Below, in pieces: positions 3,001-23,735 of a stretch of 23,818 nucleotides of DNA. Below the pieces are notes generated by a model. That model was not told the origin of the DNA. It made no database searches and worked only from the letters and a program-made list of their open reading frames with translations. Each line of letters starts with the position of its first letter. Positions within the stretch are counted from its first letter, which is position 1. Position numbers and translations under genes: made by a program. The stretch spans positions 1-23,818 of IMG/VR virus record IMGVR_UViG_3300045789_000303. One strand, 5' to 3'. This DNA comes from a virus.

Positions 3001-6000
3001 ATGTTCTTATCAAATAATTTCCAAAGTGGTATTTCTACTGGTGCAGGTGGTGCTGGTATTACAGATAATGACGTTAGTACTGTTATTCGTGGGAATGTTC
3101 CCAATAAAGGCGCAGAAGCAAGATTTATGTGGATACCACAGAGAGGTGCGCTCAGAATAGGCGCACTAGATCAAGCAGGAGCGGCAGATTATTGGGAAGA
3201 TAGTGAATTAGGATATCAGTCTATTGCAATAGGTAATAATACTAAGGCATCACATTTCTCAACAGCATTAGGTTTTAACGTACAAGTTGGTGAAGTCAAA
3301 AAATCTGCGACTACAGCATCTAAAAATAACAATAACAGTGTTGCTTTTGGTCAAGGTATTGATATGCCCCAGCGCAACAGTGTTGCTATGGGTATCGGTA
3401 TTATCACAAGACCTACTAGTAATAGTAGCGGCACTCCAGTTCCAAATAATCCATTCATCTATAACAAAGAACAAATTGTATCACTCGGATCAAAAATTAA
3501 CTCGGCAGGTTCTTTCAATACTTCATTGGGAAATAGAATAACAATTGGGTACAATACTGGAATTGCGAATGATCAATCCCTATTCCCATTCATGAATCCG
3601 AGTACTGCTAACAATGTTACAGCAATAGGTAGAGACTTACTTGCTTATAAAACATCTGATAGATCATTAATGATTGGTGCTAACAGTGTAGTTAAAAAAG
3701 AAGATACAACTTCAATTGGTAATAATAATCAGTTAGATAAGCAATATACAATTGCCATTGGTAATGATAATTTATTACAAAAAGAAGATGCTCTCGCCAT
3801 AGGCCAAAATATTATAATGAGAAGTAGCGCACAAGGTGCGGTTGGTGTTGGTAAAGAAGTTACTGTGCATGGGAAAAATGCTGTTGCGATGGGTAGAAAT
3901 GTTCATGTGACAAGTGGTACTGGTGCGGTTGCTATTGGCGCAGACGGTAAAGTAACTGGTACTGGTGGTGTTTTTGTTGGATCACAAGGTACTGCATCAC
4001 AAAAATCAGTCGCGGTAGGTAGTTCTGTTTTTGCTGGTAATCATGGCGTAGCAATTGGTAAAAATGTCAGAAGTTACGGTGCGCAAGGATCAATAGCATT
4101 AGGATATAATGCTTATTCTGGCAGCGGTGGATTTGCCATTGGTAATAATGTGGTTGGTAAGACAGGCGCAGTTATGGTTGGTCAAGGTAATAGTGGAGCC
4201 AACTATAGTACTATTTTCGGTCTTAATAGCACATCTAAAACTGGTGGTGTTGCGATTGGTAGTTACGTTCAAAATACAGGTACTTATGCTGTTGCCATGG
4301 GCCGTTCAGTACAAGCGGCGGCGGGAACTGCTGCTATGGGTATATATGTAAAAACTACAGGTGCAAGATCAGTTTCAATAGGTGGTGGTACTTCAGCATT
4401 ACCCAATGTCGCAGCGCAAGATGCAGTATCTATTGGTTACTCAAACATTGCTGGAAGCAAAACGGTAGTTATTGGTAAAAATAATACAATGCTTGCTGGA
4501 ACAAGTTCTATTCCAGGCATTACTGTTGGAACCGACAACACAAATAACTCTAAAGCAAATATTTACGGTTCTAATAACTCAGGTAATAGTTATGTTTCTG
4601 TATATGGTAGTGGTCAGTCTGGAGCCTCAACTAGCAGCACAAATACTCCTTCAACTGCGATGGTCTATGGTATAGGAAACACTATTACTGCAAATGGTGG
4701 TTTAGCGTTTGGTAAACAGAACATTGTTGAGTTAAATGGTTTAGCATTTGGTTCTTCAAATGATGTTCAAAAAGAAGGTTTAGCATTTGGTTATGACAAT
4801 GAAGTAAATCTTGGTATTGGTAATGGTAATACAACACATTCTATAGCATTTGGTAGAGGTAATGCTTCGGATACTGAAGCGATTGCGCTTGGTAGAAATA
4901 ATGTTGCCACTCATGGTGCTATTGCAATCGGTAATACAGTTACCGCTACTGGGGCCACAGGAAACCAAGGTGGTATTGGTTTAGGTAGAAATATTACTGT
5001 ATATGGTCAAAATGCTTTGGGATTAGGAACCAATATTACAGTCGGTAGTGCAATAAATAGCGCAGCGAACAGTGTTGGTATTGGACTTGGAACAACAGCA
5101 ACAACAGTATCTACTGATAATACTCTATCCATTCAAGGTGGTCAAGTTGTAATTGAGCAAGATGAAATTAATATTGTTCCAGCAACTGCTATACAATATA
5201 AAAGTGAGGCTGCATATGGTTCCTATGGTGATGGTGGAACTGATATTTCATGTGAAAAAGTTAATGAAAATGGAAGGGCTGGAATTAAATATGCTCTTGA
5301 AGTAAATGGTCCAATAAATGTTAATGGAACTGATGCTGCTGGTAATGAGCATGACTTCTATATGCAAGGTATGAGACTTTACAATTATATCAGATATGTT
5401 GCAGCGGATAGTGCTTGGATTTTGTCGGCGGCTGATCAAGAGTATGTTGAAGGTATAATTAATAAAGAATATCTCAGAACAACATGCACTAATGATACAT
5501 TCTTCCAAAAAAGTCCAAGTGGTGGAGCATCACATCTTGTATATAAAGGCGCGAATGACTTTGAGTTTGTTGGTATTAATTTAGATAATACTACAGCAAC
5601 TAAAACTCCTGGTTATTTGAGATATGGTCCAGACGCTGAAGGTGTGTATAAGAGTAACGTAAATTATACACTAGATGTTAATGGTAATGTTAACCTTGAA
5701 GGATTAACATATCAAGGTGATGTTATTCTACCAACTGGTGGACTTGATAGTAACATCTATCTAAATCATTATACTAATCAAATTTATTATCAAATTACAC
5801 CAGATTCAGCAACTGCATTCTTTGATAGTGCGTATGTAGCAGACAGATACTCTTTTGGTTCTAATCCATCTGGTGCGGACTCTATTGCGATCATTAATAT
5901 GGTTGATGAAGACTTTATTAATGAACTTGTTCGCCCTGTTTGGCCTGATTCTGCCTATATTGATGGTAAACTTGATAGTGTTGTTGGTGGAGATATTATA

Positions 6001-9000
6001 GCATTTAGAGTTAAGCACATTCTTTCTGCTAAGTATGGCGATTTAACCACTCTTGAAAAGGCTCTTGGTCGCGGTGAAGCCCAATTTACAAACCCAACTG
6101 GGTTTGAGGCCACATATGGTACTAAAGTTGGCATTGGTAAAATAACTTATAGTCATTGGGATTCTAATCCATCAAGAGTCGGTGTTCAAACACAACTTAG
6201 AACTAGTGGTGTAACTGGGGTAACTGCTGGACAAGAAGCAATTGAAACATTAGGTCCAACTATAGGAAATTTAACTACTGGTATGGGTCTTGCTGTTGGT
6301 GGTAAAGTTGTTATACATGGTACACAAGAACCCATTACAGGCGCAACGGAACTGCCAGCGTTAGAAATTTTCAATGGTCATATTGAAGTAAATGGTGAAA
6401 AATTAGTTCTGGAAACTCCTTGGGATGAAGGTGCATCATACACCACATACAAGTCTCCAAATAAATTTATTGGTATAGGTAAAATTTCTCCAAGTTTTCA
6501 CTTTGATGTTAATGGAAAAATAAATGCTGATAGTGGTCTCTTTGTTGATGGTACTAATATAAAAGACATTTATGACTCGGATTGGGTAAAAACCACAGTA
6601 ACTGAAGATTATATAAAAACTGACTTGAATGTTGATAGTGCTTATATTATGTCAACTCACAAAGCAGTGGGAGATATAATTCCAGCCTTAGATACAGTAT
6701 ATGATTTAGGATCACCTACTGAAAGATTTAGAGATATATATCTAAGTGGAAACTCAATTTCACTTGGGGAAGTTATAATATCTTCTAATGCAAGTGGTTT
6801 GGAACTTTCTGATAGTGCTGGAAATCTTTTAAAGTTTGGTGGAATAGATTCAGACGCCATCGCGCATTTCATTGACAGTTCTTATGTCCAACTTCGCGCT
6901 GACTCTAATTGGATATTCTCGGCAGTTACTCAAGAATATGTAAGATCAAATGCAGATTCAAATTATATAAAAAGTTTCATTAACAGTTCGTATGTATTTA
7001 ATATTACAGATACAAAATATGATAGTGCGCTCTTCCTCTCAGCAGCGGATTCAGATTATGTAAAAACTGTGGCATCGTCTGATTATGTCTTAGGAATTGC
7101 AGACTCAAATTATGTGAAAAGTGTGGCATCGTCTGCTTACGTCTTAGGAATTGCAGATTCAAATAATGTAAAAACTTTCATTAATAGTTCGTATGTCTTA
7201 GGACTTGCAGACTCTAATTATCTTAAAGTTAGTATAGATTCTTCCTATATTAAAGGCTTCATAACTCCTGCATATGTGAAAAATGCTAATGATGTTGATT
7301 CCGCATTTATTAAAGGAATTGCAGATTCAAGTCACATTCAATCGGCAGTAGATTCTAGTTATATTAAAACTTATATAGATTCATCTTATGTCAAAGAGTT
7401 CGCAGATTCAAATTATGTGAAAAGTTTTATTGATAATACATATGTATTGAATATTACAGATACAAAATATGACAGTGCGTTCATTTTATCGGCAGCGGAT
7501 TCTGCATATGTAACAACTGTTATTGATGCTAAACTAGCAGCAACTGGACATATTCTTCCAGAATTGGATAGTGCCTTTGATATTGGTTCACCTACCAAGA
7601 AATTTAAAGATTTATATTTAAGTGGTAGTACAATAAACATAGGTAACACTAGAATAACGGCTGCTCCTGCTGGACTAAAAATTACAGATAATGTTGGTAA
7701 TGACGCTAAAGTTCTGGGAATAGATTCAGATGCTATTTTGGGATTTGTTGATAGTGCTTATGTTGATCTCAGAGTACCGTTTAATAAAGTAACAATCCCG
7801 CATATTCTAGGTATTGCAGATTCAGATTATGTAAAGACTGTGGCATCTTCGGCTTACGTCTTAGGTATTGCAGACTCAAATCACATAAAAACTCATGCAG
7901 ACTCAAATTATGTGAAAACTTTCATTGATAATGAATATGTTAAAGGTATAGCAGATAGTGGATATATACAAGGATTTATTTCTACTCCTTACATTAGAGG
8001 TATAATAGACTCAGCACATATTAATCCAATTACTGGTATTGGAACTAGAGATGTTGACTTTGGTGGCAATACGATTTACTATAATAATACTTTTGCATTC
8101 ACTAATCAATTACCAAGTGCGACAACATATAAAGGTATGGTTGTATATGATAACCAAGCACAACTTCCGAAAATTGCTGTTGGTGCTGATTGGCATGAAT
8201 TAGCGAGAACTTCAGATATAAGAGCAATCGCTGATAGTGCGGTGGCAACATTAGTGGCTTCAGCACCTGCTGCATTGGATACGCTCAATGAATTGGCGGC
8301 GGCGATGGGAGATGATGCAAATTTCTCCACTACTTTAACAAATAGTATTGCTGCTAAATTACCTCTTTCTGGTGGCACTATGACAGGTGCGATTGATATG
8401 GGTAGTAATAATATTACTACCACTGGAAAAATGCTTTACTCAAATGTATATTCGGCAGAAGGCGATTTGCCAAGTGCATCAACATATCATGGAATGTTTG
8501 CTCACGTTCATGGTACTGGAAAAGGTTACTTCGCTCACGCTGGAAATTGGGTAAAATTAGCAAACTTTGATGACATTTCATCTACTGTAGATAGTGCTTA
8601 TGTTGCAGCAAGAACAAATGCTGGAACAGACAGTGCTTCAATCGTAAATATGATTGATAGTGCATATGTGCAAGCAAGACAAACTTCTGGTGGTGGCGGC
8701 GGTGGGCTTGATAGTTCACTTACCATTTCTCTAATTGACAGTGCTTATGTCTCAGCGAGATCAAGTGGAAGTACTGCATTTACATCATCTATTACATCTT
8801 ATTATTATACAGCCACAGCAAATCAAACGGTATTTACTGGTTCGGATAACAATAGTGCAACTCTTAGTTATGCTGTTAATTCAGTTACAGTATTCTTAAA
8901 TGGTATAAATCTATTAAAAGGCACAGATTACAATACTACTGACACATCTACAATTACACTTGTCACTGGTGCAAAAGTTGGTGATGAACTTGTTATTAAC

Positions 9001-9666
9001 GCATTAAGTCAAATTAGTGCTAGTTCTGGTACTATAAATGCTTCTGTAATTTCTGTAGTTGATAGTGCATATGTAGCGGCAAGAACAACTGCTGGAACAG
9101 ACAGTGCATCTATTATTAATATGATTGATAGTGATTATGTTGCAGCAAGGTCAAGTAGTAGTGGTGGTGGATTAACAATTTCAGATAATCCTCCCGCATC
9201 ACCAAGCGTAGGTTCCATGTGGTTTGATCCAGAAGCCCTTGAAACTTATGTTTACTATACTGATAGCGATAATACTTCTCAGTGGGTAAAATCTAACCCA
9301 ACTGGAATAGGACTGTCTGCTGTTACTAGCATTGTTGATAGTGATTATGTAGCGGCAAGAACAACTGCTGGCGCGGCAAATTGGACAGAAATCACTAGTA
9401 CGCCAGTAACGGCAACTGCTAATCAAAGATTAATTATTGATACGTCTACTACCAAGACTATTAATCTCCCAGTTTCGGCTAATTTGGGTGATGAAATTAG
9501 ATTTATTGATGGAACTGGAAATGCAAACACTAATAATATTACTATAAATAGAAACGGTCACAAAATAGAAGCAAGCGATTCTGACTTGACTGTTGATGTT
9601 GATCGGGCGGCGTTTGGGTTAGTATACTATAATGCCACAAATGGTTGGTTATTTACGGAGAAATAA
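1..9666 (+). CDS. Giant modular tail-fibre-like protein, 5'-truncated by the window edge (at least 3,221 aa)
   Basis: The frame is open from base 1, so the true start lies upstream. The first initiator-like codon in frame, TTG at 349, has no Shine-Dalgarno sequence, and fibre-like coding continues upstream of it, so it is not taken as the start. Residues are counted from base 1. Order: beta-rich N-terminal part (1-590); about 18 decapeptide repeats DSxxIxxL (592-781); about 40 YadA-head-like repeats of the SIAIGNN/AVAMGRN type (1074-1700); three LDVNG-type fibre motifs; two copies of a DLGSPTxxFxDLYLSG module; nonapeptide repeats of DSxYVK type; a gp37-like KLPLSGGTMTGAI stretch; then DSAYVAAR repeats with poly-Gly linkers and a small C-terminal beta domain ending in NGWLFTEK. 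I see no membrane anchor and no S74 autoprotease. By family knowledge, such repeats form trimeric beta-rolls and stalks. I infer a long trimeric virion fibre that contacts the host. The fibre class is well supported; the exact T4 counterpart is unknown. Confidence 0.85.
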   Translation, partial: GVTRLITSDSVVIGGSLRVESDLTIGGGLTTIGHFNIDSFVNIGGAVKIGSFNGRDSGNGLGVYDASQIKGKNGLYVGDSTHLRGGLKVLGHDNVLQEAYTFTIDSNYVQETQTVSLNNTQIQNAFGPNDADSHIVLSFTDSVDFNFLRITRTTSAGATVLLNRYIDYDSLGNRTLFDSSQYGYGSPSHNLMTNQNRLKNVYIKEPSVLNTDTQLHGAELVAQSDSNSKLSIIIGNRIIAVGGTSIPRVSNIIDDANNSLAINAGISLFGVVDPIVKLTDSIGTVKGQLLKDRDFTIVDSFEIRVFSDLNVVPGLFPSAYGVTDSAKMILGDKITIQDRTPTLTSRTEIVGPTNLFGHVTLGNEAMAHAAYPGYPHTGSRLTTHDSFVVKGGMHFESSGDPVNRKRIQFDADVHVDSGKVWYFGPKKTVSHKVPASLIDATQDAYGHYQNINPATTFDSNLIVGMDSHIVQNVKATTDPIDLNATRLTVNNLSIRDGSVFLYGPLRTRSHLKQDSDGIGGLLGKVESDGSYDGTITGIQRYADSQYQVTLDSHVVDILQNPPLPVLNFLKPVTFSKPVIMQDSLTVQFVNADSASIDQLVSDSAYIKYARIDSSYISQLIVDSSRIGHLIVTDSATIKQFTSDSARISQLDVDSAYIKLLKADQILDTYISQLLVDSANIGQLDVDSAYIKQLKWDVVTDGYISQLISDSANIGQLDGDSAYIKQLKWDVVDSGYIKYAQIDDAYISQLLVDSARISQLDVDSAYIKTAKIDSSYQTLIRGPSEITIDPLDVGTNAGKIHVKGSFELTNGDFTLDSMSRMFVGEPIDFYKYESDGSGNKTTFPENVLNPNHEGQKYQRFQHFFDRSSNHFQTFDNTKVDAGNVVYKYESDGSPVVSGKGFTTPTGNLHHILVDSFDVVNTDNSLNIFRKTHRLDLDSHIGRIVDSDYIGIRLQTPWKIENVSLGVQKKIFYDDEGAVIIGPKSLLTGDLATRFVVDSGNVMFLSNNFQSGISTGAGGAGITDNDVSTVIRGNVPNKGAEARFMWIPQRGALRIGALDQAGAADYWEDSELGYQSIAIGNNTKASHFSTALGFNVQVGEVKKSATTASKNNNNSVAFGQGIDMPQRNSVAMGIGIITRPTSNSSGTPVPNNPFIYNKEQIVSLGSKINSAGSFNTSLGNRITIGYNTGIANDQSLFPFMNPSTANNVTAIGRDLLAYKTSDRSLMIGANSVVKKEDTTSIGNNNQLDKQYTIAIGNDNLLQKEDALAIGQNIIMRSSAQGAVGVGKEVTVHGKNAVAMGRNVHVTSGTGAVAIGADGKVTGTGGVFVGSQGTASQKSVAVGSSVFAGNHGVAIGKNVRSYGAQGSIALGYNAYSGSGGFAIGNNVVGKTGAVMVGQGNSGANYSTIFGLNSTSKTGGVAIGSYVQNTGTYAVAMGRSVQAAAGTAAMGIYVKTTGARSVSIGGGTSALPNVAAQDAVSIGYSNIAGSKTVVIGKNNTMLAGTSSIPGITVGTDNTNNSKANIYGSNNSGNSYVSVYGSGQSGASTSSTNTPSTAMVYGIGNTITANGGLAFGKQNIVELNGLAFGSSNDVQKEGLAFGYDNEVNLGIGNGNTTHSIAFGRGNASDTEAIALGRNNVATHGAIAIGNTVTATGATGNQGGIGLGRNITVYGQNALGLGTNITVGSAINSAANSVGIGLGTTATTVSTDNTLSIQGGQVVIEQDEINIVPATAIQYKSEAAYGSYGDGGTDISCEKVNENGRAGIKYALEVNGPINVNGTDAAGNEHDFYMQGMRLYNYIRYVAADSAWILSAADQEYVEGIINKEYLRTTCTNDTFFQKSPSGGASHLVYKGANDFEFVGINLDNTTATKTPGYLRYGPDAEGVYKSNVNYTLDVNGNVNLEGLTYQGDVILPTGGLDSNIYLNHYTNQIYYQITPDSATAFFDSAYVADRYSFGSNPSGADSIAIINMVDEDFINELVRPVWPDSAYIDGKLDSVVGGDIIAFRVKHILSAKYGDLTTLEKALGRGEAQFTNPTGFEATYGTKVGIGKITYSHWDSNPSRVGVQTQLRTSGVTGVTAGQEAIETLGPTIGNLTTGMGLAVGGKVVIHGTQEPITGATELPALEIFNGHIEVNGEKLVLETPWDEGASYTTYKSPNKFIGIGKISPSFHFDVNGKINADSGLFVDGTNIKDIYDSDWVKTTVTEDYIKTDLNVDSAYIMSTHKAVGDIIPALDTVYDLGSPTERFRDIYLSGNSISLGEVIISSNASGLELSDSAGNLLKFGGIDSDAIAHFIDSSYVQLRADSNWIFSAVTQEYVRSNADSNYIKSFINSSYVFNITDTKYDSALFLSAADSDYVKTVASSDYVLGIADSNYVKSVASSAYVLGIADSNNVKTFINSSYVLGLADSNYLKVSIDSSYIKGFITPAYVKNANDVDSAFIKGIADSSHIQSAVDSSYIKTYIDSSYVKEFADSNYVKSFIDNTYVLNITDTKYDSAFILSAADSAYVTTVIDAKLAATGHILPELDSAFDIGSPTKKFKDLYLSGSTINIGNTRITAAPAGLKITDNVGNDAKVLGIDSDAILGFVDSAYVDLRVPFNKVTIPHILGIADSDYVKTVASSAYVLGIADSNHIKTHADSNYVKTFIDNEYVKGIADSGYIQGFISTPYIRGIIDSAHINPITGIGTRDVDFGGNTIYYNNTFAFTNQLPSATTYKGMVVYDNQAQLPKIAVGADWHELARTSDIRAIADSAVATLVASAPAALDTLNELAAAMGDDANFSTTLTNSIAAKLPLSGGTMTGAIDMGSNNITTTGKMLYSNVYSAEGDLPSASTYHGMFAHVHGTGKGYFAHAGNWVKLANFDDISSTVDSAYVAARTNAGTDSASIVNMIDSAYVQARQTSGGGGGGLDSSLTISLIDSAYVSARSSGSTAFTSSITSYYYTATANQTVFTGSDNNSATLSYAVNSVTVFLNGINLLKGTDYNTTDTSTITLVTGAKVGDELVINALSQISASSGTINASVISVVDSAYVAARTTAGTDSASIINMIDSDYVAARSSSSGGGLTISDNPPASPSVGSMWFDPEALETYVYYTDSDNTSQWVKSNPTGIGLSAVTSIVDSDYVAARTTAGAANWTEITSTPVTATANQRLIIDTSTTKTINLPVSANLGDEIRFIDGTGNANTNNITINRNGHKIEASDSDLTVDVDRAAFGLVYYNATNGWLFTEK
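1774..2343 (+). repeat. Decapeptide DSxxIxxLxV repeat zone in the giant fibre
   Basis: About 18 units start with Asp-Ser (occasionally Asp-Thr, Asp-Gly or Asp-Asp), for example DSARISQLDV and DSANIGQLDV. Most are exactly ten residues; a few carry four-residue insertions such as KWDVV. A 99-nt stretch is nearly duplicated in tandem (anchor at 2036 and again at 2135), so one 33-residue step was copied recently. Regular Ile/Leu/Val spacing suggests a beta-solenoid or trimeric stalk, which is an inference. Confidence 0.85.
3220..5100 (+). repeat. About 40 YadA-head-like (left-handed beta-roll) repeats
   Basis: By eye there are about 40 copies of a motif of form (A/S/G)-hydrophobic-(A/S)-(I/L/M/F/V)-G-x-(N/G), for example SIAIGNN, AVAMGRN, GVAIGKN and GLAFGYD, spaced about 14-16 residues apart. 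This is the signature of the head domain of bacterial trimeric autotransporter adhesins (YadA family), where each repeat forms a turn of a trimeric left-handed beta-roll. In some units around 4560-4680 the Ile-Gly pair is replaced by Tyr-Gly. No autotransporter anchor follows, so this is a phage use of the fold. Confidence 0.88.
6670..6903 (+). repeat. Fibre module DLGSPTxxFxDLYLSG, copy 1
   Basis: Encodes about 78 residues beginning GDIIPALDTVYDLGSP and running through RDIYLSGNSISLG to IDSDAIAHFIDSSYVQLR. Copy 2 lies 876 nt downstream with the same order of motifs. A shorter relative is at the start of the gene at 19087. The module is common in marine T4-like phage fibre and structural proteins (from memory). 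It probably folds as a repeated beta unit of the fibre shaft. Confidence 0.8.
6868..8030 (+). repeat. Nonapeptide xDSxYVKxx repeat zone
   Basis: Many nine-residue units such as ADSNYVKSV, ASSAYVLGI, INSSYVLGL and IDSSYIKGF, interrupted by module copy 2. A near-identical 54-nt (two-unit) tandem duplication is visible: the ggcatcgtct anchor is at 7071 and 7125, with a diverged third copy near 7841. The units differ in length from the decapeptides at 1774 but share the Asp-Ser plus aromatic/Val pattern. Confidence 0.8.
7546..7779 (+). repeat. Fibre module DLGSPTxxFxDLYLSG, copy 2
   Basis: Encodes GHILPELDSAFDIGSPTKK, then KDLYLSGSTINIG and IDSDAILGFVDSAYVDLR. It aligns end to end with the copy at 6670, but with many substitutions, so the duplication is old. 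Between the copies, the stretch around 7000 (NITDTKYDSALFLSAADS) is also repeated around 7447, indicating stepwise growth of this part of the fibre. Confidence 0.8.
8587..9372 (+). repeat. DSAYVAAR / TDSASIxNMIDS repeats near the fibre C-terminus
   Basis: The unit VDSAYVAARTxAGTDSAS followed by xNMIDSxYVxAR occurs at 8587 and 9058, with a partial copy at 9331. Poly-Gly or Gly-Ser linkers follow (around 8689 and 9160). Between them lie two modules I recognise as frequent in marine phage structural proteins: an SVTVFLNGINLLKGTDY module and a PSVGSMWFDPE module. The repeats may join small globular tips to the shaft. Confidence 0.75.
9543..9550 (+). promoter_or_regulatory. Possible internal T4-type late promoter TATAAATA
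   Basis: An exact TATAAATA followed by G lies 116 bp upstream of the start codon at 9667, inside the 3' end of the giant fibre gene. It could drive the 2,200-residue gene separately. However, it is within coding sequence, farther from the start than the three intergenic copies, and could be chance in AT-rich DNA. Confidence 0.3.
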
Positions 9667-12600
9667 ATGAGTAATATTCAAATATGTGATACAGAGGCCG
9701 ACATATCTTCGGTTGATGTTGTTGAAGGTGATGAGGCAGTAGTAAAAGAAAATAATGCTATCTACAGATTTTTTGATTTAAGTACCACATCATCATTTTC
9801 TTATGATTTTGATGATGGTACACATTTAAAATTAGATAGTACATTTTTTGATTTTTTATCTCTTGGGGTAAGAGATTCTTTTAGTATAGAATTTTGGATG
9901 AATAAAAATACTGCTGATGATTTTTCAATATTTGATATAGCAAATCCAAGAGTTTCTTCTATTTTAGATTTTTCTTCAGATTCCCATACAATTACTCAAT
10001 ATGGTCGTACTCAAGCAGTTAAACATGGGCCATACAAGAACGGAAGTAGTTCATTATTTTTTGATAGTAGTCTTGACTTTATTACTGTTGATAGTAGCCT
10101 TGATAGTATGGTACTATTTTCACCATTTACTATTGAATTTTGGTATCGTAAAGAAAACTCTGCGACAAATGACACCGTTTTTGCTGTAATGGATAAATTT
10201 AAAGATATTTTGGTATTAGATGAAGAAGGAATTATTGTAAATGGAGTTCAATATACCTCTACTGCTAGTAGTCTTGATGCAAAAACTTGGACGCATAATG
10301 CACTTACATTTGATGGGTTTAATTATGAATTATGGAAGAACGGAGATTCTGTTGAATTAACTAGAACTCCTGATGATGGTGGAAGTGTTAAATATATTAT
10401 TGATAGTGGTTTTATGAATATTTTTACTATGGACAGAAAAGTTCCTTCTTCATGGGCTGTGCAAACAACAATGTCACCAACAGATAAAACTTTATTTTAT
10501 ATGGGTGGGGCGGTAAATAGAGTACAATTACAAACTATAAACTCTGGGGCCGATTTAAAATTATCAGCGGGTGGTGCTGATGGACCATCATTAATAGTTC
10601 CAGCACCAGCGGATACTGATATTCATACAATTTCTTGGGACGTAAACACTGATCCAGGAAGAGTTAGATTATGGATTGATAGTAATTATCAAGGTTCTAA
10701 TTCTATTAATAAATCTTTACCTGCACGACAATGGGCTTTAACTTCTTTTGAAGATTTAAGTAATGCAACATTTACAAATTCACCTTCAATGTTGGATTCA
10801 TCCACTAGAAATAGATCGGATGGTGCTGAGAATTATAATACCGACATATTTCCTTACAGTACATTGAATGATGAGCAAGATGGGTCTTGGAACTATTATT
10901 ATGATTATCCTACTGTTCAAAAGTTAAGCAAACTAGCATATACAAATGAAGATTGCACTGTTGACGGTGAACAAGATATAAGTAAAGTAACAAGACGCTC
11001 GGCCAATCTTCTGAACACCCGGTATAAATATTCCACTTCGCGGCTGAAACATGGGTATGCTGGATTCCCTCTTTGGTGTTTTAGTTCAGGTGGTGGGATG
11101 GGTGGAGATAATGCAGATGGGCGATTGGTAGCAAAATATACTATGGCGAATGCCGTTGGTGGTTATAGACCACAACATTTTTACGATAATTTAAACGCAA
11201 ATATTCCCAGCGCGACAAAGCAAAATATTCCTGGATATACTCATGCAGATGGTTACACTCCTGCTTATGATATTAAACACAGGCAGCAATGGTGGAGTAC
11301 TAGTCTTTATTGGCGGTGGATGCCGCAATTCCAAGGCTATCAGAATGTGGGGAACAATCGTTATTTTAGCGGTGGGACAAAGAACCGACTTGATGATGGG
11401 ACCAAGGTAACCAATGGGTTTACATATAATCCAGAAGGGCGAGTGCAACTGTGGTACTTTGCTGCATATTATACGCATATTAATAAATATCCAGAAGCGT
11501 TTGATCTTGGATATAGAAGACCAGATCGTTGGTATACTGATGATTATTTACCACTCGCCGCCTACACCGGTGCTAACCAGACAGATGTTTCTGGTGCATA
11601 TAAATCAGTAGATTTTCTTGCGGCACCAGCATTACGAAATGAATGCAAGCCAGCACCTTTAGGATCAATTTTTCTGAGCGAAGATACTTCCCTTGGTAAA
11701 AACAACTCAATCAACCAAAACTCTTGGAGTGTCGTGCCTGCTAATTGGAATCGCGATGGTGTTGCGAAGGGTGATGCTAGTTATTTTAATAGTCTTGGAT
11801 CTGGACTTAAATTTGGTGTAGAGGCTACATATAAGGTTAAACAGACTGATGGAATGTCAGAAAATATTGGGCTAAAACAAGAAAAGTGGGCAGTTGATTT
11901 TATAAAAACGTGGCATGATAATAATAAAGGGCAGTATTTGCAATCTGGATCAACGCCGGGTCAAGCCGTAGGTGGATTAACAACATATTGGGGGGATAGA
12001 TGGAATTCTAGTTTAGGAAGTGACTATGATCCTTGGACACACCAAGAAATAGTTGACTGTCTTACACCTGCATCAGTGGAACCAGCAGCGAATGGATCGG
12101 GCACCCGTCTCCCGCTTGATAAAACTTCCCACGTAGGGGGGGATCGTGGTATTAGAGGAGATTTATTAGGTGGCGCGAGGGTTTTTTCTGCTGGAAATTA
12201 TAGTTATATTGATAACGTATCAATACAAAAGGGCGGTACTAAAAGTTATTACATTGAAATAGACCCTGCTGATAATAGAAGCGGTCATCCTTCTGATTAC
12301 ACTGGTATGTGGTTTGCTCAAAAAGCGATATTCTATGGTCCAGAACTTGCCAAAACTAATACTCATAAATATAATAGAACAAATTGTCCAGTATATTTAA
12401 CTCTTTTTGAAACATCTAAAATTGGTGTTCACCCTTATATGTATACGGATGGGCAATTTGTTAGTGAAACATATGGGCAGGGGGCAAACTCTGGGATTGA
12501 TGGCCTTTCATATCGTACCCTGAATGATAACTCAGGCGATATCAATGGGGGCGGCGCACAACTTTCCAGACCGATAGATAGATACTCTGGCAATGGGGCA

Positions 12601-15600
12601 GATGGTTCTACTGGTTCATGGTCTTCACTTAGAAGACACAGGGCAGTCCACCAATACGGTGATCACAGGTATGATGGAAATTATCTTGACCATCACATTA
12701 CGCGCGGGATTTATAACTACAAACGCCCTTCTGGGAAGGGGGATATGGGGGATGGTTTTCCAACAGCCCCACATCCACAGGATTTTGGTTCAATTGCTCC
12801 TGATAAATTTGTTCCTAGAGGGGGATTAGGTGACGATGGATTTGGTGCTTCAGCATATCAAACAGATATATACCCTATAGTTAAGGATTTTGGAAGTGAG
12901 CGTGTATCTTATATAATATCAGAACCAGACAGTAGAATTTATATATTCGCGAGTGCTGCATATGTCGGTTATGTAGATTTTCCTGAGAATGATGCTCCTT
13001 ATAGTATTATGTTAAAAAAGGGAGAAAAGATTGCTACTACGGATGGAACTGGTAAGATTCCTGCCGTTAGCAATACGAGGGGTCAGAATCGTGGCTCTGG
13101 GTGGAATAATGATTATGGTGAAGGTACTTATAATCAATTTAAAGTAATTAATAATATTCAACCATATATTAATACTCTTAAAAAAGACGCCCTAATAATT
13201 GATGGTGTATTCGGAGGTTTAGGTGGTGGTCGTTTAGGTACACATAAAAATGTGGGGGGTGTTATAACTAATATGGATTGGGTCAATGATGATTTGGAGA
13301 TGCCTGATAGTCAAATACCTGAAAATCAATATAACCGACAAGCCAGCGTGTTTGGTACTATTAGACCATCTCAATGGCCTGGACCCCCACATAGTTATCA
13401 TATAAGTGGTCATCCAGATGGAGGAAAGATCGTACAACCAGATAATAGAGGAAAGAAATATGTATATATGTCAGCGGCGTTGGGGTATATGTATCAGCCC
13501 GTTGCTTATGGGGCAAGGTCGGCATCGCAGTATCCAGGAACAACGGCTGATCCTGACGATAGGACTTTTAATTTTAGAATATTAAACCAAATGATGTTAT
13601 CTATTGATGGTTCTCAAGGTTTAGCACCAGCAGAGTATCTTTCAATTGCTGGCCTAAGTTGGCCTTTCAGTGATTATCCATATTATATTGAAACCAGAAG
13701 CGCACAAAGAGATCAAGGGTATGGGTCAAATTACCACAGAGCGCAGACATATACATCTCTAGCACTTTGTCACAAATTTAAAAGGGGAAGAATTTTTGAC
13801 AATTTTGAACATAGAAAATGGTGTGTACATTCTCATTCAAAGGTCAGACTAGGTGCTAATTCATGGCAACTTGATCCAGTTGATTTAGTAGAAACTATTC
13901 CTTCTGCTGATAGAAATGCTTCAAGTTCTTCTGGAGATGGTGCATTTGGTATGGACTCTCTTGGTGATAGTTGGCAAGGAACTTTAAAATCTAATCTATT
14001 ATATAGTCCTCAAATGTATAGTGATTTTAAAGACTGTTCTATTACAATTGCTGAAGCGGTAAGAAGTAATAGGGGTGAACAAACAGGATTGCAATATGCG
14101 ACAGACTATGTTGCTAAAACTGGAGGGTCTATAGTACATTATTCTGGTGGTCAAAATACTGATATAAAAACTGCTTTGGGAGGATTATCTGAAGGTGATG
14201 CTTTAGTTCTACCTACTGGAAAATATGAAGTTTCGGCTTCACAAACTGGTACTCAAGACCATTATAAAACCAAGACTAGTATCTTTTTTGACGTAGGATT
14301 TTTAATTTGTGGTACAACAGATAATCCTAATGATGTAGAATTGAAAATTAAAGTACATAGGATTTTTGATGAAGCAACTACATCAAATACTCAACTTGCA
14401 TTTATGAATATCAAGAAAGCAGAATATCATTCTTACAACCCTGATATTATTTTTAAAAGCGCACATGGTATTGCGTTCAAATGCATTTTTGATTTTAATA
14501 ATAAAGACATTGGGTGGAGAACATATCAATCATCTAGCGATGCAGGATCATCAGCAAATATTATAAAATTTGAAGGATGCATATTTACAAACTATAAATC
14601 ATGGTTAGTTCCAAATAGAAATAATTATTCGTCTTATAAAAACAGTAAAGTTAATGTTAATGAAATTATAATTAAAGATTGTATTTTTCAAAAAGATTTT
14701 GGACCAACATATGATTTACTTAATCCCACTAATTCTCCAACATTTGAAGGAAAACTTTTAATAAATCAAGGTACGGTAGATGCAACTTTTACTACAGGAA
14801 ATGCTATGTCAGAGTGGTACATAGATGATTATGCAGCAGGTAGTAAATTTCGTTATATTAGAGATTTTATTATCCATGATAGTAATAAGTATCCGCTCAA
14901 ATATACTATTGATTCAGCACCCACGATAAAAGATGATAGTAGTACACATTTAATCTTAAATCCTCAAATTGTAGATACTGCACTTAGTTATAGCACTGAT
15001 GGTGTTATAACACACGGCACGACAAAAGATAAATTACATAATGTACCTTATACTTTAGGTAATTGGTTCTCCACATCTTTAAACTACAGTGGAGACTCTA
15101 ACGTAATTAGAACTTATATAGATGGTATAAAGGTAGATAGTAGTTCAATAAATTTAGACATAAATTCTCTGATTAGTACAGATAATATCATGTTTAATAA
15201 AAAAGACTCTTGGAATCCTACTCTTGCAATTTATGAAGATATATATGGAGATTTTCTGCTAAAAGAATTTCGTTTAACTAGAAACCAAAAAAGAAGTGGT
15301 GATTATGCTGCACAATTTTTAACAGAATTTGGGTTTGGAGACAAACTTACAAAAGAACCAGATGATGTTTTCCTAACGGCTCATGATGGCTCATCCATTT
15401 TAGCAAATGAAAATAGCCCATACACTGCTGATGTTAAATCGTGGCGCAAAGTGGGTATTTTACCAAATGCTCTAGAAAGTGCTTATACTATATTAATTGA
15501 TGATAATCCAAGTGAACAATATGGCACTGGAGTATTTGGTGAAGGTGCTAATATTGATTTCAAGATGCCTTTCAAAACCAATGGTGCGCCAACCGCTGAT

Positions 15601-16269
15601 TGGCAATACACTAATGCAGATGTTGCACCAAGACCACAAAATATGACATTGGGATTAGTTGAAGATTCAAACTATAGACCTATTAGGAAAACTATGCCTA
15701 TATATGAATCTGATGGCTTCGGTGGATTTAATTCTCCATTAGTTCAAGAATCAAGTGGTTCATATATTGGAACTATAACAGGAGATGATCACACATACAT
15801 ATATCAACCAGATTCTAATCTTGCATTCGCGAGGCCAAGTTTTCTAATACACCTTAAAGATTCTGATGATAGAGGAGATAGTATTGATTGGACATATTCT
15901 GTTGATAATTATAAATCTTCTATCTTACAGATAGGCCATGATATTGACAACAAAACTTTCTATATTAAAGCATATGATATATCAGAGTCCAACATGCATA
16001 GAAGTTCTCATTTACATTTTATTGGAAAATCTGTAGATTCTGAAAATAAGAGGCCAATTGTAAATAGTTTATCAAGACCAACAGATTCATCTGCTACACC
16101 GATGGAAATTTCATTTCAATATAACGGCACAAGCGGTTTAGATATATCTTGGCTTGGTGATGTACAATTCATGAGGTATATAACCTTAGATAGTATTCCA
16201 CCTGATTTTGATTCAACTAGTATGATATTTGATCCTATTGTATCTTCTCAAACAGGGGGTATAATATAA
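9667..16269 (+). CDS. Large LamG / beta-helix adhesin or tailspike-like protein (2,200 aa)
   Basis: The ATG follows directly on the TAA of the giant fibre gene; GGAG at 9657-9660 is a well-spaced ribosome site within that gene's last codons. Residues about 50-350 hold LamG/concanavalin-like pieces: SFSIEFW near 75, FTIEFWYR near 154, ELWKNGD near 219 and VRLWIDS near 332. Residues about 442-1298 form an unrecognised Gly/Tyr/Trp/Asn/His-rich block encoded by GC-richer DNA. Residues about 1494-1675 begin with TDIKTALGGLSEGDALVLP, typical of the first turns of pectate-lyase-like right-handed beta-helices. Residues about 1745-1880 are another LamG-like unit (RTYIDGIKVDSS, then LLKEFRLTRNQ). The remainder is unassigned. 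LamG folds usually bind glycans, and phage beta-helices are often tailspikes or depolymerases; no catalytic residues can be assigned. I infer a receptor-binding virion protein. Confidence 0.75.
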   Translation: MSNIQICDTEADISSVDVVEGDEAVVKENNAIYRFFDLSTTSSFSYDFDDGTHLKLDSTFFDFLSLGVRDSFSIEFWMNKNTADDFSIFDIANPRVSSILDFSSDSHTITQYGRTQAVKHGPYKNGSSSLFFDSSLDFITVDSSLDSMVLFSPFTIEFWYRKENSATNDTVFAVMDKFKDILVLDEEGIIVNGVQYTSTASSLDAKTWTHNALTFDGFNYELWKNGDSVELTRTPDDGGSVKYIIDSGFMNIFTMDRKVPSSWAVQTTMSPTDKTLFYMGGAVNRVQLQTINSGADLKLSAGGADGPSLIVPAPADTDIHTISWDVNTDPGRVRLWIDSNYQGSNSINKSLPARQWALTSFEDLSNATFTNSPSMLDSSTRNRSDGAENYNTDIFPYSTLNDEQDGSWNYYYDYPTVQKLSKLAYTNEDCTVDGEQDISKVTRRSANLLNTRYKYSTSRLKHGYAGFPLWCFSSGGGMGGDNADGRLVAKYTMANAVGGYRPQHFYDNLNANIPSATKQNIPGYTHADGYTPAYDIKHRQQWWSTSLYWRWMPQFQGYQNVGNNRYFSGGTKNRLDDGTKVTNGFTYNPEGRVQLWYFAAYYTHINKYPEAFDLGYRRPDRWYTDDYLPLAAYTGANQTDVSGAYKSVDFLAAPALRNECKPAPLGSIFLSEDTSLGKNNSINQNSWSVVPANWNRDGVAKGDASYFNSLGSGLKFGVEATYKVKQTDGMSENIGLKQEKWAVDFIKTWHDNNKGQYLQSGSTPGQAVGGLTTYWGDRWNSSLGSDYDPWTHQEIVDCLTPASVEPAANGSGTRLPLDKTSHVGGDRGIRGDLLGGARVFSAGNYSYIDNVSIQKGGTKSYYIEIDPADNRSGHPSDYTGMWFAQKAIFYGPELAKTNTHKYNRTNCPVYLTLFETSKIGVHPYMYTDGQFVSETYGQGANSGIDGLSYRTLNDNSGDINGGGAQLSRPIDRYSGNGADGSTGSWSSLRRHRAVHQYGDHRYDGNYLDHHITRGIYNYKRPSGKGDMGDGFPTAPHPQDFGSIAPDKFVPRGGLGDDGFGASAYQTDIYPIVKDFGSERVSYIISEPDSRIYIFASAAYVGYVDFPENDAPYSIMLKKGEKIATTDGTGKIPAVSNTRGQNRGSGWNNDYGEGTYNQFKVINNIQPYINTLKKDALIIDGVFGGLGGGRLGTHKNVGGVITNMDWVNDDLEMPDSQIPENQYNRQASVFGTIRPSQWPGPPHSYHISGHPDGGKIVQPDNRGKKYVYMSAALGYMYQPVAYGARSASQYPGTTADPDDRTFNFRILNQMMLSIDGSQGLAPAEYLSIAGLSWPFSDYPYYIETRSAQRDQGYGSNYHRAQTYTSLALCHKFKRGRIFDNFEHRKWCVHSHSKVRLGANSWQLDPVDLVETIPSADRNASSSSGDGAFGMDSLGDSWQGTLKSNLLYSPQMYSDFKDCSITIAEAVRSNRGEQTGLQYATDYVAKTGGSIVHYSGGQNTDIKTALGGLSEGDALVLPTGKYEVSASQTGTQDHYKTKTSIFFDVGFLICGTTDNPNDVELKIKVHRIFDEATTSNTQLAFMNIKKAEYHSYNPDIIFKSAHGIAFKCIFDFNNKDIGWRTYQSSSDAGSSANIIKFEGCIFTNYKSWLVPNRNNYSSYKNSKVNVNEIIIKDCIFQKDFGPTYDLLNPTNSPTFEGKLLINQGTVDATFTTGNAMSEWYIDDYAAGSKFRYIRDFIIHDSNKYPLKYTIDSAPTIKDDSSTHLILNPQIVDTALSYSTDGVITHGTTKDKLHNVPYTLGNWFSTSLNYSGDSNVIRTYIDGIKVDSSSINLDINSLISTDNIMFNKKDSWNPTLAIYEDIYGDFLLKEFRLTRNQKRSGDYAAQFLTEFGFGDKLTKEPDDVFLTAHDGSSILANENSPYTADVKSWRKVGILPNALESAYTILIDDNPSEQYGTGVFGEGANIDFKMPFKTNGAPTADWQYTNADVAPRPQNMTLGLVEDSNYRPIRKTMPIYESDGFGGFNSPLVQESSGSYIGTITGDDHTYIYQPDSNLAFARPSFLIHLKDSDDRGDSIDWTYSVDNYKSSILQIGHDIDNKTFYIKAYDISESNMHRSSHLHFIGKSVDSENKRPIVNSLSRPTDSSATPMEISFQYNGTSGLDISWLGDVQFMRYITLDSIPPDFDSTSMIFDPIVSSQTGGII
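10990..13560 (+). other. GC-rich compositional island inside the 2,200-aa gene
   Basis: Sampled 60-base lines reach 35/60 GC (12061-12120) and 34/60 (12721-12780), against 16/60 in both flanks of the same gene (9781-9840 and 15121-15180). G and C runs occur at synonymous positions as well as in Gly, Pro and Trp codons. The Asp-Ser dipeptide frequent elsewhere in the fibre genes is absent from about 10990 to 12925. The reading frame stays open throughout. This suggests a foreign segment fused in frame. Boundaries are approximate. Confidence 0.65.
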
Positions 16270-22367: not shown

Positions 22368-23126
22368 ATGTCATCAAATAGACCCGACACCAGAGATGAA
22401 TTGATAGATTACTGTTTGAGAAGATTAGGCTCACCAGTGATTGAGATCAATGTTGCGACAGACCAAGTAGAAGATCGTATTGATGACGCAATTGATTTTT
22501 ATCAAGAATTTCACTCAGATGCCACACATAGGACATATTTAAAACATCTCGTTACTTCTGACGATGTTACAAACAAATATATTCCAATACCTTCAAGCGT
22601 AATTTATGTAACAAAATTATTTCCTATTATTACTGCTGGCAATACTTCAAATTTCTTTGATATTAAATACCAAATGATGTTAAACGATGTTGCTGATATG
22701 GGTAGTTTTATTGGGGATTTAATGTATTATGAACAAATGCAACAACACTTGGCATTGATTGATACTAAATTGAATGGTATTCCACAAGTAGGCTATTCAC
22801 GCAGAGAGAATAGACTTCATATTCACGGTGAGTGGCAAAACGGTGATATAAAAGCAGGTGATTATTTGGTTGTAGAAGTGTTGCAAATTATTGATCCAGA
22901 TACAAATGTTTCTGTTTATAATGATAGGTTTCTAAAAGATTATGCAACTTGTTTGATAAAAATTCAATGGGGGTCAAACCTTATAAAATTTGAAAATATG
23001 CAAATGCCAGGTGGTGTCACATTAAATGGTAGACAAATATATGATGATGCGATACAAGATAGAGATAGACTTGAAGAACGAATGAGGCTGGAACAAGAAA
23101 TGCCACCTGATTTTATGGTGGGTTAA
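22368..23126 (+). CDS. 13: Neck protein, T4 gp13-like
   Basis: This is the head-completion (neck) protein family that, with gp14, seals the filled head and joins it to the tail. The N-terminus (RDELIDYCLRRLGSPVIEIN, then DRIDDAIDFYQEFH) and the C-terminus (YATCLIKIQWGSNLIKFE, MPGGVTLNGRQIYDDA, PPDFMVG) match what I recall of gp13 in marine T4-like phages. At 252 residues it is shorter than T4 gp13 (about 309), as is common in marine relatives. The start has an AGGAAA ribosome site and its own late promoter. It is followed after three bases by the gp14-like gene, the T4 order 13-14. Identification is from recognition of the sequence, not a search. Confidence 0.88.
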   Translation: MSSNRPDTRDELIDYCLRRLGSPVIEINVATDQVEDRIDDAIDFYQEFHSDATHRTYLKHLVTSDDVTNKYIPIPSSVIYVTKLFPIITAGNTSNFFDIKYQMMLNDVADMGSFIGDLMYYEQMQQHLALIDTKLNGIPQVGYSRRENRLHIHGEWQNGDIKAGDYLVVEVLQIIDPDTNVSVYNDRFLKDYATCLIKIQWGSNLIKFENMQMPGGVTLNGRQIYDDAIQDRDRLEERMRLEQEMPPDFMVG

Positions 23127-23129
23127 AAT

Positions 23130-23735
23130 ATGACAACTAATCATTATATTTCTCAAACAGTAAGAAGCGAACAAAATCTTTATGAAGATATCGTTATAGA
23201 GTCTCTTAAAACTTATGGGCAAGACGTTTATTATCTTCCTAGAACCATCGTTAATGAAAATAAAGTTTTTGGTGATGATGTCCCATCAGCATTTAATTCT
23301 TCATACAAAATAGAAATGTATATTGAAAATACTGAGGGTTTTGATGGTGAAGGTGATCTGTTTACAAAGTTTGGCGTAGAAATACGTGATGCTGCTACAT
23401 TTATAGTTGCTAGAAGAAGGTGGAGAAACCTAGTTGGTCAAACGACTAACGATATAGATCAAATAGACCGACCAGCAGAAGGTGATTTAATATATTTACC
23501 TTTATCAAAATCTATGTTTGAAATAATGCATGTTGAGCATGAACAGCCATTTTATGCTTTAAGCAATTTACCGACATATAAAATGCGATGTGAATTATTT
23601 GTTTATAATGATGAATCATTTGATACTAGTTTGGTTGTTCTTAATGAACTTGAGGCAACAGATGCTTATACTTATGAACTTACCTTAAAAATTCCTAAAC
23701 AAGCAACTGCGACTGCTAATATAGGAGTGATATAA
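23130..23735 (+). CDS. 14: Neck protein, T4 gp14-like
   Basis: Partner of gp13 in the head-tail neck. The opening QNLYEDIVIESLKTYGQDV, then YYLPRTIVNENKVFGDD, YKIEMYIENTEGFDGEGD and KFGVEIRDAATFIVARRRW are typical of gp14 in T4-like phages. The protein is 201 residues, shorter than T4 gp14 (about 256), and ends shortly after TYELTLKIPKQ. The stop overlaps the next ATG by one base (TAATG at 23733-23737), so the C-terminal truncation relative to T4 is followed at once by another structural-type frame. It lies three bases after gp13, with which it is clearly co-transcribed. Unlike the fibre genes it shows no Asp-Ser repeats. Confidence 0.88.
   Translation: MTTNHYISQTVRSEQNLYEDIVIESLKTYGQDVYYLPRTIVNENKVFGDDVPSAFNSSYKIEMYIENTEGFDGEGDLFTKFGVEIRDAATFIVARRRWRNLVGQTTNDIDQIDRPAEGDLIYLPLSKSMFEIMHVEHEQPFYALSNLPTYKMRCELFVYNDESFDTSLVVLNELEATDAYTYELTLKIPKQATATANIGVI

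Follow-up and report, generated by a model that had tools for sequence, protein, structure and literature searches.

The fibre gene and its surroundings

The window, a virus record of 23,818 bases, contains the genes of two neck proteins and, of a giant tail fibre gene, the 3' part (Table 1); the initial annotation was made from this part of the gene only. The complete fibre gene is found in a relative (L005:557-17800), where it encodes a protein of 5,747 amino acids starting MPATIRIKRSSNVD; in a second relative, L006, the fibre is approximately 5,716 amino acids long. The N-terminus of the fibre is 37.5% identical to a tail fibre of Pelagibacter phage Mosig, and at the C-terminus the identity to a Mosig tail fibre is 43.6% over 100 amino acids. 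In PHROG several tail fibre families were matched, phrog_9729 [2.8e-31] among them.

Table 1. Features on the window discussed in the text (positions in bases)
Feature	Position	Strand	Remarks
3' part of giant tail fibre gene, 3,221 codons	1..9666	+	open frame without a stop; PHROG tail fibre matches C-terminally
DSAYI-type repeats, ca. 10 residues	1700..2400	+	upstream of the beta-roll, same gene
YadA-head-like beta-roll array	3220..5100	+	ca. 33 (strict) to 40 (loose) repeats, each of ca. 14 residues
Most regular core of the array, ca. 17 consecutive turns	3655..4383	+	predicted continuous beta-roll, pLDDT 86.7, pTM 0.80
DSxYV-type repeats, ca. 9 residues (54-base tandem repeat)	6930..8000	+	downstream of the beta-roll, same gene
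Conserved C-terminal domain	9360..9666	+	common to other marine phage fibres; phrog_31104 7.4e-18, phrog_4302 3.3e-10
gp13-like neck protein (head-tail adaptor Ad2)	22368..23126	+	phrog_211 2.5e-40; marks T4-like cluster
gp14-like neck protein (head closure Hc2)	23130..23735	+	phrog_460 4.6e-71

The gp13-like protein was matched in 2,254 phage records, and the relatives carry genes for the tail sheath, portal, terminase, sheath stabiliser and baseplate wedge. In this T4-like marine phage the fibre gene has the baseplate genes on one side and gp13/gp14 on the other, which bears out the T4-like tail cluster recognized in the initial annotation. This position fits the host recognition cluster of the pelagimyophages, which ends at gp14 (PMC7029224). 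The fibre gene of the window is followed (9667-16269) by one for a 2,200-amino acid protein with a weak match to Laminin_G_3 (24.2 bits; cut-off 27.6), which may possibly bind carbohydrate. In another relative (L134:5950-11219) a 2OG-Fe(II) oxygenase gene and three genes whose scores exceed the radical SAM cut-off lie upstream of the fibre gene.

As YadA heads are familiar chiefly from adhesins of bacteria, one might suspect that the region is a bacterial trimeric autotransporter placed by mistake in a viral contig. The neighbouring phage genes rule this out: the contig itself has gp13 and gp14, and the relatives have those for sheath, portal, terminase and baseplate. The protein also matches phage tail fibres at both ends; we regard the probability of such an origin as negligible. 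The anchor beta-barrel of these adhesins (PF03895) was searched for in every piece of the window gene and of the N-terminal part of the L005 protein and found in none, so that the protein is not a trimeric autotransporter. The statement that it lacks the anchor therefore holds.

In L005 numbering the main array occupies residues ca. 3600-4240 of 5747, and some 1,500 residues follow it. The same protein has a second YadA-type array (ca. 845-1050; 33.8 bits with the repeat profile described below) and a weaker GGY-rich one (ca. 1210-1690; 11.4 bits). It also contains near-identical 30-residue tandem repeats (ca. 2010-2200) and three stretches of DSAYI or DSxYV repeats, among them residues 100-340. 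The DSAYI and DSxYV repeats are possibly another type of rod or joint; DSxYV also precedes a YadA array in the fibre of another phage, L035. With several repeat arrays in one fibre, the YadA-type array is one module of a mosaic. We put forward, tentatively, that two or three separate YadA-type beta-rolls alternate with the DSAYI, DSxYV and 30-residue rods in one chain of 5,747 residues, giving a jointed fibre much longer than those of T4.

Repeats, sequence similarity and predicted fold

The first motif of the array lies at codon 1074 and the last at 1693 (ca. bases 3220-5090), in agreement with the position given at first, and the array copies counted below lie within codons 1074-1705. No stop interrupts the motifs, the frame being fully open. 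The motif small-hydrophobic-small-hydrophobic-G occurs 33 times in codons 1041-1740, as against a mean of 2.5 and a maximum of 9 in 1000 shuffles; in its strictest form there are 25 copies in the same interval. A broader form gave 36 copies in the array (mean 5.7, maximum 15 in 2000 shuffles) and 16 in the remaining 2,521 residues of the frame. The spacing is chiefly 13-16 residues. The array is uneven, with degenerate stretches at about codons 1132-1205 and 1493-1566. The repeats are consequently real and far more numerous than chance would give, but because these two stretches break the array the figure of about 40 copies in the initial annotation is valid only if imperfect turns are counted.

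A Pfam scan of the whole ORF matched no family. When the protein was cut into pieces, codons 1061-1290 (the first 230 residues) matched YadA_head, PF05658, with 32.2 bits [E 1.3e-7], the curated cut-off being 25; the remaining pieces, and the entire region as one piece, fell under it. The sole match in a PDB sequence search with the array region was the YadA head 1p9h [E 0.004], and a small profile of the core found that same chain again [E 0.0075]. A repeat profile built from the repeats of eight other viral contigs, with the window left out, scored 49.5 bits against the array region, the top of 50 shuffles reaching 8.5. The proposed similarity to YadA heads is thus present at the profile level.

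The AlphaFold2 model of the whole 669-amino acid region had a mean pLDDT of 59.8 and was confident in the middle only. Being poor outside the core, it made the Foldseek search uninformative, and the core (243 amino acids, codons 1219-1461) was refolded alone. The resulting monomer, with the scores listed in Table 1, has two strands in every repeat. The alignment behind it consisted of the window and two close relatives only, hence no bacterial sequence steered the model. Neither the 669-residue model nor the core had a significant Foldseek match in the PDB; with the core the head of BpaC reached E 2.8, and 1p9h was absent among the matches listed. VIA, a second alignment of the Foldseek candidates, placed 7o23, the trimeric adhesin head of BpaC, first with the core [Z 15.1; 139 residues aligned, 27% identity, rmsd 6.9], the next match having a Z of 11.2. 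The rmsd indicates that the curvature differs.

On the strength of a monomer model and its top VIA match, the core is accordingly predicted to form a parallel beta-roll, as had been suggested, each turn consisting of two strands; the coil would be left-handed, going by BpaC, and three chains probably assemble. The array has in common with the YadA-like heads (PF05658; YadA 1p9h, BpaA 3LAA, BpaC 7o23) a repeat of ca. 14 residues with an SVAIG-type motif, and the two short strands per turn of the predicted roll. It differs in having several-fold more turns than the YadA head and degenerate breaks, and in sitting inside a phage fibre in which no anchor was found.

The resemblance to bacterial adhesins could be one of ancestry; alternatively, a short unit could have been duplicated within phages, the resulting repeats having come to match the YadA pattern by convergence only. 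Trimeric adhesin heads rank first whether profiles, sequences or structures are compared, and modules are often exchanged between phages and bacteria, both of which speak against convergence. In its favour are the weakness of the sequence similarity to YadA (E 0.004) and the occurrence of proteins named YadA-like head in giant viruses too, which suggests that the pattern is widespread. Furthermore, the bacterial genome contigs searched for a donor contained no relative, by a method that detects close ones only. We give an independent origin in phages somewhat less than an even chance.

Conservation and occurrence of the array

Two relatives, L002 and L003, encode the array region at 96 and 94% identity, free of gaps, and the number of repeats is identical in the three contigs. 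dN/dS over the region is 0.16-0.26. Most changes fall at loop positions: positions 12-14 have 8-10 changes, while motif positions 1, 2 and 5 have 0/76 changes each. These three sequences give an indication of a conserved roll with freer loops, under purifying selection.

The clustering of differences at the loops would also suit the main alternative, a roll that itself binds the receptor, that is, a phage adhesin lying along a host surface polymer as the YadA head does with collagen. Bacterial YadA-type heads do bind ligands, including collagen through their Ylhead regions (PMC2942831), and a pelagiphage tail fibre has a YadA domain at its variable C-terminus (PMC3909814). The array described here, by comparison, is long, shares its 5,747-amino acid protein with other arrays and lies inside it, with ca. 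1,500 residues following. Purifying selection acts on the array and its number of repeats is fixed, whereas a binding tip would be expected to be hypervariable. We therefore consider receptor binding by the roll unlikely.

YadA domains have likewise been described in structural proteins of pelagimyophages (PMC7029224); these and the pelagiphage protein resemble the present one in being products of marine phage tail fibre genes with a YadA-like domain. Cyanophages have a 'YadA domain-containing structural protein', namely S-TIM4 ORF108 (PMC6224464) and S-SZBM1_54, which was detected in virions by mass spectrometry (PMC9146016). S-TIM4 ORF108 is, like the window fibre, a large structural protein encoded beside gp13/gp14. 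Pfam gave Mtd_N only in this protein (L131:210-6920), and neither the motif nor the YadA-repeat profile found an array in it. The cyanophage proteins were rejected as a direct precedent, S-TIM4 ORF108 and Syn19_095 being without such repeats. The 'YadA domain' label on a well-studied cyanophage protein thus does not stand for the domain described here, and annotation is no reliable basis for counting such domains.

When viral contigs were scanned for three repeats in register, at least 120 loci were found. At least 89 loci have open frames bearing chains of five or more motifs, a count in which the two close relatives and some low-complexity frames are included. With the repeat profile at least 113 frames reach E 1e-3, several with 20-35 units; the profile was built from eight of these loci, which do not include L015, L067, L099 and L043. 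In L035, L042 and L016 the presence of YadA_head is confirmed by Pfam. The unannotated viral contigs L035, L042, L016, L067 and L015 also have fibre-like frames, with ca. 13-35 repeat units by profile; they differ from the window in that the proteins are shorter, the phages are others and the repeats are often more regular. The first of them (L035:246-1601), in design a compact relative, is a short phage fibre in which DSxYV repeats are joined to ca. 13 regular repeats of YadA_head [Pfam 2.9e-22].

Tblastn of the window array against named phages gave nothing significant, so that named relatives cannot be read from the array itself. With more regular arrays a few named phages were found, for example a Flavobacterium phage tail spike, under the Pfam cut-off. 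YadA-type arrays are common in phage fibres and that of the window is a long example. The initial annotation had overstated its rarity, since more than 80 loci have such repeats, in some cases in arrays of similar length, and marine phage fibres with YadA domains had already been published.

Probable role of the beta-roll in the fibre

Taken together, the repeat, the model and the place of the array in a long fibre that has further rod-like repeats point to a stiff spacer segment. We conclude that the array very probably serves this marine T4-like phage as a structural rod segment in a very long tail fibre. With each repeat of ca. 14 residues the chain would complete one turn of a parallel, left-handed beta-roll like that of the YadA head, and three chains, probably packed side by side, would give a stiff shaft. 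By our own estimate (ca. 40-47 turns of 0.48 nm) the shaft would be roughly 20 nm long. As a spacer, such a rod would hold apart and position the receptor-binding parts of the fibre; its loop faces may additionally bind a surface ligand. The original proposal that a bacterial-adhesin architecture serves as a long phage fibre stands insofar as a head-type beta-roll lies within a tail fibre gene, but the roll is one segment of a mosaic and not the whole fibre.

The profile, model and selection evidence argue that a phage fibre uses the head fold of bacterial adhesins as a shaft, and the scan of viral contigs suggests that this use of the fold in phage fibres is widespread and mostly unannotated.
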